Assembly: GCA_902523635.1 (NCBI GenBank)
Contig: CABZAE010000001.1
Coordinates: forward strand, 124,001-188,000
Origin: an uncultured Bacteroidota bacterium
Lineage (GTDB): Bacteria > Bacteroidota > Bacteroidia > Flavobacteriales > Flavobacteriaceae
Reading direction: 5' to 3'
Length of the DNA stretch: 64,000 bases
A program made the translations under genes and the position numbers. Below, in pieces: positions 3,126-44,494 of the stretch (positions are counted from its first letter, which is position 1; the number at the start of each line of letters is the position of its first letter). Below the pieces are notes generated by a model that worked only from the letters and a program-made list of their open reading frames with translations, had not been told where the DNA came from and ran no database searches.

Positions 3126-6100
3126 TATCCTTTTTAATCTCTACAAAATTCACCGCCATCTTATTTGTTTTATTTCCTCTTTCCATGGGAATTGGAACTT
3201 TTGTTGAGAGCTACTATAACACAACAACTGCAAAAATACTAATATACAATGCTTGGTGGTTTGAATTAATGATGGTTTTTTTTGTTATTAATTTTGCATT
3301 TAACATCAAGAGATACAATTTACTTACTTTCAAAAAATGGCCAATTTTATTGTTACACCTATCTTGGATATTGATAATTTTAGGTGCAGGTGTAACAAGA
3401 TATATAGGTTATGAAGGTGTAATGCCGATAAGAGAGAATACCTCTTCCAATAAATTTCTTTCTGAAGAAACATATCTTACAGTTTTAGTTGATGGAGAAC
3501 TTAATGGAGTGCCTGTGAGAAGAGGTCTTGAAGATGAGTTTTTATTTTCAGAAGCAACCAACAATTATTTTATTTGGAATTACGATTTTCAGGGTCAGGA
3601 CTTTTCAATAGAATTTGAGGACTTTTATGAAAATGCAAAAGAGGATGTAATAGAAAAAGAAAGTGGTGAGCAGTATTTAAAAATTGTTGAAGCGAGTGAT
3701 GGTACAAGGCATGAACATTTTTTGAAATCTGGCCAAGTAACAAGTTTACACAATATCTTATTTGCATTAGATAAACAAACTGAGGGAGCGATAAATATTA
3801 CAACCAAAAATGGGAAATTATTCATAGAAAGTCCATTTGAGGGAAGTTATATGAAAATGTCTGATCAAAGTCAAGGAACTTTAATTAAAGATCAAGATGA
3901 AGTTTTAATGCTTAGATCTTTATATAATGTTGCAGGCTTACAGTTTGTTTTTCCAGATGGAATAATTGAGGGTGATTTTGAAGTGGTTCGTTCAAATGAG
4001 GAATCTTCTCAACAGGGTCTTGTTGTAAGAATTTCCACTATGAATCAATCCAAAGTAATTGGTATACTTGGAGGAAAAGGAATTGTAAATATTCCAAAAA
4101 AAATAAATGTTGGAAACCTTGACTTTTCATTAACATATGGGTCTTTAGAAAAGACATTACCATTTAATATCAGACTTAATGATTTTATTGCTGAAAAGTA
4201 TCCTGGAACTGAAAAAAGCTATAGTAGTTTCAAAAGTAAAGTCAGTGTAATAGATGAAACAAATTTTGATTATGAAATTTATATGAACCATATTTTAAAT
4301 TATAAGGGATATAGATTTTTTCAAGCATCTTTTGATCCTGATGAGAAGGGGACGGTGCTATCGGTGAACCACGACTTTTACGGTACCTTGTTAACTTATG
4401 TAGGCTATATTTTACTATATGCCGGATTAATGGGAGTTATGTTCTTTGGAAAAACTAGGTTTATAGATTTAGCTAAAAAGTTAGAGAAATTAAGACTTAG
4501 AAAAAAGGCATTATATTTTATTATTGGATTAGTTTCTTTACAATCAATATCTCAAGAAAATCACTCCCACAGTCAAAGTCAACTAAAAACTTTAGATCTT
4601 TTTAACTCAGATACTCAAGTTTCTTATGAACATGCTGCAGAATTCGGAAGTTTAGTGATACAGGATGCCGGAGGTCGTATGAAACCACTTAATACTTTTG
4701 CCTCTGAACTTTTGAGAAAGGTTAGCAAATCTGATACTTTCAAAGATTTAAGTGCAGATCAGGTACTAATTTCGATTTTAAAAAACCCTCTTTCATGGTA
4801 CAATACACCTATTATTTATCTAAAAAGAGGAAACGATAGTTTGAGAAAAATTGTTGGTAGGGAAAAGAAAGATAAATATGCTGCATTCGTTGATTTTTTT
4901 GATGAAAATGGAAATTATAAAATTTCATCACAGCTAGAAAGTGCATATAAGGCTTCATTGCCAAATCAGTTTCAAAAAGATTTTATTGAAACTGATAGAA
5001 AAGTAAATTTACTATTTTCAGCTTTTGAGGGTAAAATTCTAAGAATTTTCCCAATACCTAATCATCCAAACAATAAGTGGATTTCTTTTTCTGAAAATGA
5101 TACAGATCAGTTTCAGGGAGTTGATTCTTTGTATGTAAAAAATGTTCTACCATTATACTTTTCAACCTTAGACAGTGACATAAAGACAGGAGATTATGAA
5201 AACTCAAAAAAACTAATTGAAAGTATAAAAGGTTTTCAAACTAAATATGGTTCACAAGTTTTACCAAGCGAGGATAAAATCAAAGCAGAAATTTACTATA
5301 ATAAATATGATATTTTTAAAAGACTTTTTAGCTGGTACATGTATGCAGGTGTTTTAATGTTTGTTTTTTTGATTTTCCAAATATTCTATGAAAATTCATA
5401 TTTGAAGTATTTAATAAATTTTTCGAAGTATTCAATCATTGCTTTATTCATTATTCATACAGTCGGCTTAATAGCCAGAGCTTATGTTTCTGGTCATGCA
5501 CCATGGAGTGATGCTTACGAGTCCATGATTTATGTTGCCTGGGCGACAGTTGGTATTGGTCTAGCATTCGGAAGAAAGTCTGATTTAACTATTGCAGCTA
5601 CTTCTTTTGTTTCCTCAATGATATTAATGATTGCTCATTGGAATTGGATGGATCCTGAAATAGCCAATCTTGTTCCAGTATTGGATAGTTATTGGTTAAT
5701 GATCCATGTTTCTGTTATTGTTGGAAGCTACGGGCCATTTACCCTGAGCATGATTCTGGGAATTGTATCATTAATTTTGATAATGATAACCAACCAAAAA
5801 AACAAAAAGAAAATTGATTTAAACCTTCAGGAACTAACCATTATTAATGAACTCTCTTTAACAGTTGGATTGATTATGTTAACAATTGGAAATTTTCTTG
5901 GTGGACAATGGGCTAATGAAAGTTGGGGTAGATATTGGGGTTGGGACCCCAAAGAAACTTGGGCGCTTATAAGTATAATGATTTATGCATTTGTTCTGCA
6001 TATGAGGTTAATACCAGGTTTAAAAGGGAAGTGGATTTTTAATTTAATGTCAATAGTAGCCTTTGCATCAATTATGATGACATATTTTGGTGTTAATTTT

Positions 6101-42135: not shown

Positions 42136-43617
42136 ATGAAATCAATTTTTAAAATCCTTTTTTTTGTTTTTTTAATCCTCTCATGCACATCTCCGGAAAA
42201 AAATAATGATAATAAAAAATTAAATGTTCTTTTCATTGTAGCTGATGATTTAAATTGTGCAATAGGTGCATATGGTGATAAGCAGGCCATAACACCAAAT
42301 ATTGACAAGCTGGCTAGAAAAGGATTAATTTTTACAGATGCACACAACCAATATCCTCACTGTGGACCCTCACGGGTTTCATTTATGACTGGTTTGTATC
42401 CTGATCAAACAAAATCCAAGCAATTAAGACTATATGTAAGACAGACAATTCCAGATGTAGTAACATTGGGTCAAAAGTTCAGATCTGAAAATTATCATTC
42501 AGTAAGAGTGGGAAAAATTTATCATTATCACAATCCAAGAGACATTGGAACTGCTGGTCACGATGATCCTTTTACATGGGATAGGACTTTCAACCCATGG
42601 GGAAGAGACAAAAAAGAGGAGTATAAAATAAACACATTGATGGAAGGCGAATACGGAGGGACTTTAAGTTGGTTAGAGGCAGATGGAACAGATGAGGAGC
42701 AGACTGATGGTGTCGGAGCAAATCAAACAATCAGTTTACTAGATGAATTTTCCAAAACAGGAGAAAATTTCTTTTTGGCTTATGGACTTTTTAGACCACA
42801 CGTGCCATTCGTTGCCCCAAAAAAATATTATGACATGTTTGAAACGAATGATTTTACAATACCATTTAGCGATGAAGAATATTTAAAAACTATCCCTATG
42901 CCTGCAGCTCGTTCTGTGAGAGAAAAAAAAGTACAAAATTATTTAGAAGAAGATTTGGCAAAAATCATTAAGGAAGCATATTATGCAACCACAAGTTTTG
43001 TTGATGCTCAAATTGGGAGAGTTTTGGATAAACTTGAGGAAACAGGTCTTGATAAAAATACTATTGTAATACTCACTTCTGATCATGGTTATCATTTAGG
43101 AGAACATGGTCACTGGCAAAAAAGGACTTTATTTAACCACGCTACGAGAGTTCCTCTAATATTTTCTGGTCCTGGAATCAATAATCAAAATGGTGATGTA
43201 GATGACCCTGTCGAGCTTGTTGACCTTTATCCAACTATAATGGATTTTTTAGGAATGAATCCACCAGAATTTTTAAGTGGAAAAAGTTTAAAATCATATC
43301 TAGATGGTGAAAGAGTTGAAATCAGGAAAAATGCTCTAACTGAACTTCGTGTGTGGACTCCTTCCGGAATAGCTCAAGGTTATTCACTAAAGACCAAAGA
43401 TTATCGATTTACAAAGTGGTTGCATAATGATAGTTTAGACTTTGAGCTATATGACCTTAAGAATGACTCAGCTGAACTAAATAATCTAGCTAACAACAGT
43501 TCATATAAAAAAGTGAAGGATTCTCTTTTGGTTACCATTAACAATCGGATATTTGAAGCTAATAATTACCCAGAGAGTTTGGGTAGACAAATAGAAAATG
43601 TCACACCAGTAAACTAG
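42136..43617 (+). CDS. Sulfatase, iduronate-2-sulfatase-like
   Basis: Lipobox LSC; VLFIVADDLNCAIGAYG; PHCGPSRVSFMTG (CxPSR formylglycine motif); TSDHGYHLGEHGHWQKRTLF. Confidence 0.94.
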   Translation: MKSIFKILFFVFLILSCTSPEKNNDNKKLNVLFIVADDLNCAIGAYGDKQAITPNIDKLARKGLIFTDAHNQYPHCGPSRVSFMTGLYPDQTKSKQLRLYVRQTIPDVVTLGQKFRSENYHSVRVGKIYHYHNPRDIGTAGHDDPFTWDRTFNPWGRDKKEEYKINTLMEGEYGGTLSWLEADGTDEEQTDGVGANQTISLLDEFSKTGENFFLAYGLFRPHVPFVAPKKYYDMFETNDFTIPFSDEEYLKTIPMPAARSVREKKVQNYLEEDLAKIIKEAYYATTSFVDAQIGRVLDKLEETGLDKNTIVILTSDHGYHLGEHGHWQKRTLFNHATRVPLIFSGPGINNQNGDVDDPVELVDLYPTIMDFLGMNPPEFLSGKSLKSYLDGERVEIRKNALTELRVWTPSGIAQGYSLKTKDYRFTKWLHNDSLDFELYDLKNDSAELNNLANNSSYKKVKDSLLVTINNRIFEANNYPESLGRQIENVTPVN

Positions 43618-43772
43618 TTATTTTCTTCAAAGGCCCTTTTTAAATAAGGGAAAAAGAATATTATTAGTATTGAATTCAATATTATTAACGCCCATTCAAG
43701 AGAGGCAATACCATAGGTTAATCCAATAAAATAACAGATGTAACAAAGTGAATGAATCCATTTTTTTTTCAT
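43614..43772 (-). CDS. Putative 52-aa membrane protein
   Basis: MKKKWIHSLCYICYFIGLTYGIASLEWALIILNSILIIFFFPYLKRAFEENN; convergent with the sulfatase; not in the track. Confidence 0.5.
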   Translation of the reverse strand: MKKKWIHSLCYICYFIGLTYGIASLEWALIILNSILIIFFFPYLKRAFEENN

Positions 43773-43910: not shown

Positions 43911-43940
43911 TTGTCAATAACGTATTTTTTAATAATTTAG
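43911..43940 (+). promoter_or_regulatory. Bacteroidetes-type promoter for the 44041 small gene
   Basis: TTG (43911) - 19 nt - TAATTTAG (43933-43940), one mismatch to TAnnTTTG. Confidence 0.5.
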
Positions 43941-43944
43941 TTGT

Positions 43945-44015
43945 ACTATCCCGTGTAGACTGGGATTCATAATATAGTCGCGGGTGGAGAGAACGCATCC
44001 TAAAAAAACGTTACA
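43945..44015 (+). ncRNA. Structured 5' leader with possible H-type pseudoknot
   Basis: GGGTG(43982)/CATCC(43996) stem; loop AACG (43992) can pair with CGTT (44009) across a TAAAAAAA linker; upstream ATCCC/GGGAT versus CCCG...GACT/AGTC...CGGG alternatives. Confidence 0.45.
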
Positions 44016-44040
44016 TATGTTTAACATTTAAAATGAATGT

Positions 44041-44184
44041 ATGAAAAGTTCTAACGTAAATAAAGACACGCAATTAACTTACAGAGGGGTTAAGTACAAT
44101 CCTTTAAACTCTGAAAAAAATAAAGAGGTTAATAGTTCTTCAAAACTTTTTGGTACTTACAGAGGAGTAAAGTACGCTATCTAA
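44041..44184 (+). CDS. Small DUF4278-like protein, 47 aa
   Basis: MKSSNVNKDTQLTYRGVKYNPLNSEKNKEVNSSSKLFGTYRGVKYAI; two YRGVKY motifs; own promoter and terminator; below track cutoff. Confidence 0.72.
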   Translation: MKSSNVNKDTQLTYRGVKYNPLNSEKNKEVNSSSKLFGTYRGVKYAI

Positions 44185-44190
44185 AAAAAA

Positions 44191-44222
44191 TTGATGGGCT
44201 TATAAATTTATAAGCCCATCAA
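44191..44222. terminator. Perfect 32-nt terminator palindrome
   Basis: TTGATGGGCTTATAAATTTATAAGCCCATCAA flanked by A and T tracts. Confidence 0.88.
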
Positions 44223-44338: not shown

Positions 44339-44494
44339 ATGAGGAAGATCTTGTTCTTTTTTGTTGGTGGAATCATAGGGTTTTTATTTTCAATATTTGT
44401 TAAATATAGATTTCACCTCGATTGGGATTTAGACATGCTTTTTCCAACATTGTTATTTGCTTTTTGTGCTGTAGCTGTTGAAAAATATTACTAA
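44339..44494 (+). CDS. Putative 51-aa membrane protein
   Basis: MRKILFFFVGGIIGFLFSIFVKYRFHLDWDLDMLFPTLLFAFCAVAVEKYY; stop overlaps convergent gene; not in the track. Confidence 0.5.
   Translation: MRKILFFFVGGIIGFLFSIFVKYRFHLDWDLDMLFPTLLFAFCAVAVEKYY

Follow-up and report, generated by a model that had tools for sequence, protein, structure and literature searches.

Which kind of regulatory element, if any, stands in front of the microprotein gene in the unit at 43911-44222 of a 64,000-nucleotide stretch of flavobacterial DNA (hereafter the window)? An earlier note had described this unit as self-contained, with a promoter, a structured leader, a DUF4278-like microprotein gene and a terminator of its own, and each of the four elements was indeed found where it had been placed. 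The leader, which the note had recognized, was nevertheless underrated, for it is a separate RNA class common to three unrelated microprotein families and to phages. We are highly confident that this class of conserved, structured leaders, absent from Rfam and tied to microproteins, is real.

Architecture and conservation of the unit

The promoter (43911-43940, forward strand) was read from direct sequence. It consists of a TTG at 43911-43913, a gap of 19 nt and the -7 box TAATTTAG at 43933-43940, as the earlier note had claimed. The box fits the TAnnTTTG consensus of flavobacterial sigma-A, whose place in F. psychrophilum is -12 to -5 (PMC9723704); this promoter type lies outside the coverage of a generic sigma-70 scan. 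Given that position of the box, the transcription start is predicted near 43945 on the forward strand, 3 nt ahead of the first leader stem, in agreement with the proposal that the leader begins at the predicted start site. At the other end of the unit, an intrinsic terminator (44191-44222, forward strand) forms the perfect 32-nt element that had been described, with a 14-bp stem and a 4-nt loop.

The gene order at the window locus is shared with a sister genome of the same genus (G003), in which 66 of the 67 nucleotides of the leader core at 43948-44014 are the same (98.5%). The corresponding identities are 73% for the promoter, 81% for the ORF, 70% for the terminator and 85% for the neighbouring sulfatase gene. 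Although the promoter region (43911-43947) is only 73% identical, its -7 box is kept, and the terminator stem is altered on both sides in a compensatory manner, from GGGC..GCCC to GGGT..ACCC. The spacer at 44015-44040 is 92% identical to that of G003 and variable among wider relatives; folding places a small hairpin, ACATTTAAAATGAATGT, at 44013-44040 on the forward strand, abutting the AUG. The absence of conservation of both leader and ORF in relatives would have refuted the initial reading, but both are conserved, and selection on the ORF is purifying. The description of the surrounding 870-nt gap as gene-poor was wrong: it holds two more small ORFs conserved in G003, one of 52 residues at 43614-43772 on the reverse strand and one of 51 residues at 44339-44494 on the forward strand. 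Both probably encode membrane proteins, and neither gave a Pfam family above the cut-off.

Inferred tandem pseudoknot structure of the leader

The evidence for structure is covariation, not thermodynamic folding; minimum-free-energy folding of the leader by itself was not significant (z=-0.36). In an alignment of 82 loci, 62 of them distinct in sequence, the leader is consistent with two H-type pseudoknots in tandem that share one geometry. In pseudoknot 1 (43948-43979, forward strand), stem S1a pairs ATCCC at 43948-43952 with GGGAT at 43962-43966, and helix S2a is inferred to pair GACT at 43958-43961 with AGTC at 43976-43979. In pseudoknot 2 (43982-44012, forward strand), stem S1b pairs GGGTG at 43982-43986 with CATCC at 43996-44000, and the inferred helix S2b pairs AACG at 43992-43995 with CGTT at 44009-44012, across an A-rich crossing loop at 44001-44008. 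Each knot comprises a 5-bp stem, a 5-nt loop, a 4-bp second helix without linker and an A/U-rich crossing loop. Equal geometry and the similar loops GUGURGACU (knot 1) and GAGWGAACG (knot 2) suggest, at the level of sequence, a tandem duplication.

Among the 62 distinct rows, S1a is paired in 96.8% of cells and changes on both sides at three of its five pairs; pair 2 reads UA 31, AU 23, GC 5 and GU 2 times, and pair 3 reads CG 46, UA 9, AU 5 and UG 2 times. Double changes occupy 49 cells, compared with 16.9 upon shuffling, and none of 500 shuffles reached 49. S1b is paired throughout (100%), with G-U/G-C exchange in 20 rows; nearly all of this stem is invariant, so that it too is largely inferred. 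The helices S2a (GACU/AGUC) and S2b (AACG/CGUU) are paired in 62/62 rows and never vary; being invariant, they are beyond the reach of covariation and thus only inferred. Since S1a and S1b guided the fitting of the alignments, the counts lean towards these two stems. For S1a, whose arms enclose a loop of constant length (9 nt), an alignment-free check was feasible and is free of this bias. Across the distinct rows, invariant columns make up about half of the alignment, loops included.

In every row a further pairing, CCGUG/CGCGG, could also form; it draws on nucleotides of both knots and is possibly a switch partner. A long nested hairpin built on it in place of pseudoknot 1 fits the invariant columns but leaves the S1a covariation unexplained, and was rejected. 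Translation of the leader is likewise disfavoured, by 1-nt length variation in the crossing loop between rows. That S1a doubles as an inverted repeat in DNA raises the question of whether the conserved block is an operator for a transcription factor and not an RNA. We consider this highly improbable, as the arms covary around a nearly invariant 9-nt loop, the block is found past the -7 box in the window, its orientation to the gene is fixed, and both non-palindromic halves are needed, neither knot having been found alone on any viral contig in IMG/VR. Viral sequences L186-L208 match the pattern of pseudoknot 2 without pseudoknot 1; they do so in unrelated sequence and were discarded as chance.

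Microproteins encoded behind the leader

The 47-codon ORF with its duplicated YRGVKY is present at 44041-44184 (forward strand), and its assignment as DUF4278-like holds, with 31.1 bits against Pfam PF14105 (cut-off 25.3, E=3.1e-7). Comparison with G003 gave 80% amino acid identity, with a dN of 0.144 and a dS of 0.463, indicating purifying selection.

Downstream genes were read at 71 loci, some of which were fetched twice, and the motif stands in fixed orientation upstream of three unrelated microprotein families. Class 1, the DUF4278 type, follows at 15 of the 71 loci with proteins of 45-69 residues, and as a 22-residue peptide in phage that is too short to match Pfam; three further flavobacterial members also pass the DUF4278 threshold. 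Class 2 (ALEPNQGHA; 33 loci) comprises proteins of 22-47 residues, two of them cut off, and class 3 (KYYNKTRT; 20 loci) comprises proteins of about 41 residues that begin 107-202 nt past the core. No credible Pfam match was obtained for classes 2 and 3. For classes 1 and 2 the distance of the start codon from the core is near-constant. Median dN/dS values, all from short sequences, were 0.24 and 0.37 in class 1, 0.24 for the 25- and 33-residue members of class 2 and 0.64 in its few 47-residue members, and 0.16 in class 3, where dS was saturated in half of the pairs.

Across 400 Flavobacteriaceae, DUF4278 occurs in three genomes, and every gene found lies directly behind the motif; with about 10 motif-bearing genomes in 400, the chance of this for all three is about 1e-5. 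BLAST against 22 genomes of the genus detected the leader in G010 and G015, where the DUF4278 gene is absent and the leader instead precedes a 25-residue ORF, MSEEIMLALxQNNxHANAMNEIWK(D/E), with its own terminator.

Three of the 71 loci depart from the microprotein context. One (L095, contig PBHD01000001, SP3040) has the motif within a hydrogenase maturation operon, after hypF and before hypDE, and this genome holds two additional copies; another (L138) has it ahead of a SusC-like receptor. At the third (L111:4720-4830) the motif is followed by an intrinsic terminator without an ORF, possibly a stand-alone RNA of about 110 nt.

Such a copy, running directly into a terminator, would suit a regulatory small RNA or a dual-function RNA, in which the core would bind a protein or work in trans, with the ORF of lesser importance. 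The very high invariance of the single-stranded segments and the differing downstream ORFs would suit it as well. This explanation remains unlikely in our view, given that nearly all copies precede an ORF under purifying selection and that the near-constant start codon distance in classes 1 and 2 is typical of a 5' UTR element.

At several class 2 loci (e.g., L053, L123 and L099), an extra inverted repeat lies upstream of the motif, between the likely -7 box and the motif. It reads GTGAAA..TTTCAC, ACGAAT..ATTCGT or GCGAAA..TTTCGC, its arms changing together.

Distribution in Flavobacteriaceae and phages

A covariance model built from two sequences (R1) matched about 10 of 400 Flavobacteriaceae genomes strongly (E<1e-11); these genomes are all small (1.2-2.1 Mb). 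When one genome per GTDB species was searched with an IUPAC pattern for the core, 88 stretches were returned. About 22 chance matches were dropped by demanding the upstream GTGTRGACTGG, and the remaining 66 or so, which we assign to streamlined marine Flavobacteriaceae, either have the upstream half or are genuine but cut at a contig end. Where titled, these loci are labelled as Flavobacteriales, Bacteroidetes or lineages therein, with the exception of one contig labelled Bdellovibrionota, which closely resembles a Bacteroidetes contig. A search of 348 genomes of the order and 396 of the phylum with the model of the new motif (R2) returned the own genome only; few candidates were scored per genome and complete genomes were favoured, so that distant members may have been missed.

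The motif is usually present in one copy per genome. This bears on another explanation, namely a passive or protein-bound 5' element, such as an mRNA stabiliser or a translation enhancer of short ORFs, without a small-molecule ligand. A knot that starts about 3 nt into the predicted transcript and serves unrelated small genes, in phages too, is in keeping with such a role, whereas an element typically found once per genome does not front many mRNAs, and the invariance of about half of the columns, loops included, exceeds what a stability stem requires. We regard a passive or protein-bound element of this kind as improbable.

The leader is also carried by 17 uncultivated phage contigs (IMG/VR), nearly always with a microprotein; none of the isolate phages matched the RNA. 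Three of these contigs encode a YRG peptide near structural, GroES and GroEL genes. Most of the other 14, some of which are cut off, encode a class 2 peptide; their core reads GGAGUGAACG, and in many the next gene is a distant relative of a Flavobacterium myophage immuto gene (37% identity). The presence of the same RNA and microproteins in phages suggests that they are useful during infection, as for the cyanophage copies behind glutamine riboswitches. An 18-mer match in viral contig L016 was a single chance match in coding sequence and was discarded. On a further viral contig (L183:4400-4480), the class 2-like peptide MTKLEILEALEPNQGHLNAINNEVK occurs with no leader upstream.

Comparison with known riboswitches

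Against Rfam 15 at E up to 10, the leader matched nothing beyond a terminator hairpin and low-scoring noise, and our literature search found no account of it. Cyanobacterial glutamine riboswitches of types I and II are mainly tied to DUF4278 genes, and type II to short peptides (PMC6316151, PMC2864571). Glutamine-II (Downstream-peptide motif, RF01704) of marine picocyanobacteria is likewise a compact pseudoknotted leader right before an ORF of 17-100 residues, which encodes a YRG-repeat DUF4278 protein or an unrelated short peptide with its own terminator (PMC2864571, PMC6316151). In a marine Synechococcus genome, for instance, we found RF01704 ahead of two peptides, one with YRG repeats and one of 32 residues. 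Both RNAs have an AACG/CGUU helix; unlike RF01704, the new leader has CGUU 3' of AACG, consists of two tandem pseudoknots and is hosted by Flavobacteriaceae. Glutamine-I (glnA motif, RF01739) also controls DUF4278 genes, in cyanobacteria, and shares with the new leader a short similarity seen by eye (GAAGGAACGCAUC / GAGAGAACGCAUC), but its GGAAGUAGG core is missing from the leader.

Three members of the motif searched against the covariance models of RF01704 and RF01739 gave no match at E up to 10. RF01739 was not found above its cut-off in the leader or among 120 relatives, nor was RF01704 found in the own genome. In the reverse direction, R2 run on glutamine-riboswitch loci gave nothing below E=0.8. 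With no covariance match either way, the sequence comparisons assign the new leader to neither the glutamine-I nor the glutamine-II family: it is a different RNA that shares the layout and one partner gene family with them. Divergent glutamine-I and glutamine-II were rejected on the same grounds, and a circularly permuted glutamine-I, which AACG/CGUU and GAACGCAUC had brought to mind, was ruled out by the absence of the GGAAGUAGG core.

H-type pseudoknot riboswitches such as preQ1-I and SAM-II/SAM-V are small aptamers too, and have an A-rich crossing loop near the start codon. The new leader resembles them in these respects and differs in its invariant nucleotides; cmscan, run at E up to 10, reported none of them.

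A DUF4278 search of IMG/VR yielded uncultivated phage contigs (L037-L046) with DUF4278 microproteins. On four of them, which are cyanophage-like, glutamine-I lies directly upstream of the DUF4278 ORF: RF01739 is over the cut-off in L038, L039 and L046, and just under it in L041. L041 also carries a manA RNA (RF01745) at 5623-5818.

Proposed function

Being conserved and structured, and lying in the 5' UTRs of one class of genes with covariation in S1a and a fixed orientation, the leader fulfils one general criterion for a riboswitch. It is best read as a new class of riboswitch-like RNA that parallels the glutamine-II/microprotein cassette of cyanobacteria. That it is a cis-regulatory RNA, most likely a riboswitch controlling small-protein production, is a proposal to which we give about even weight. 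Conservation, S1a covariation, gene association and coding selection are observed, but transcription, ligand binding, the direction of switching and the regulation itself, like helices S2a and S2b, are deduced from sequence.

In the putative mechanism, the transcript would start at the first stem and fold into two consecutive H-type pseudoknots, whose invariant loops GUGURGACU and GAGWGAACG may provide one ligand site or two. Once bound, the ligand would favour the pseudoknot fold over the competing CCGUG/CGCGG pairing, and this change would alter how readily ribosomes reach the start codon, which lies about 28 nt past the last helix. The output would be a monocistronic microprotein message that stops at the terminator of the unit; judging from its cyanobacterial DUF4278 counterparts, the microprotein is probably an effector of nitrogen metabolism. 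A possible link of DUF4278 to glutamine synthetase regulation through IF17 rests on literature about the N-terminus of IF17 alone (PMC6316151).

Because the DUF4278 partner is shared with cyanobacterial glutamine riboswitches, the first candidate for the ligand, although a tentative one, is glutamine or some other nitrogen-status metabolite. More doubtful still is the full proposal of a two-copy pseudoknot aptamer class, also borne by phages, with which streamlined marine Flavobacteriaceae would detect glutamine or a close nitrogen-status metabolite and control DUF4278 and other nitrogen-steering microproteins, as an independent counterpart of the cyanobacterial system. Against the riboswitch reading stand the contexts of L095 (hypF/hypDE) and L138 (SusC-like), which are not clearly related to nitrogen, and the L111 copy that leads directly to a terminator without an ORF. 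Simple occlusion of the start codon is at odds with class 3, whose ORF lies too far from the core.

Should the leader sense a metabolite, it would be a new class of riboswitch, found in bacteria that abound in the ocean, and one more RNA architecture wired to DUF4278 microproteins, whose role could then be tested in a second phylum. The motif is sufficiently well delimited for direct biochemical testing.

The longer spacer of class 3 (e.g., L087, L121 and L052) often opens with a variable hairpin, and at several class 3 loci a small lipoprotein-like ORF comes next after the KYYNKTRT microprotein.
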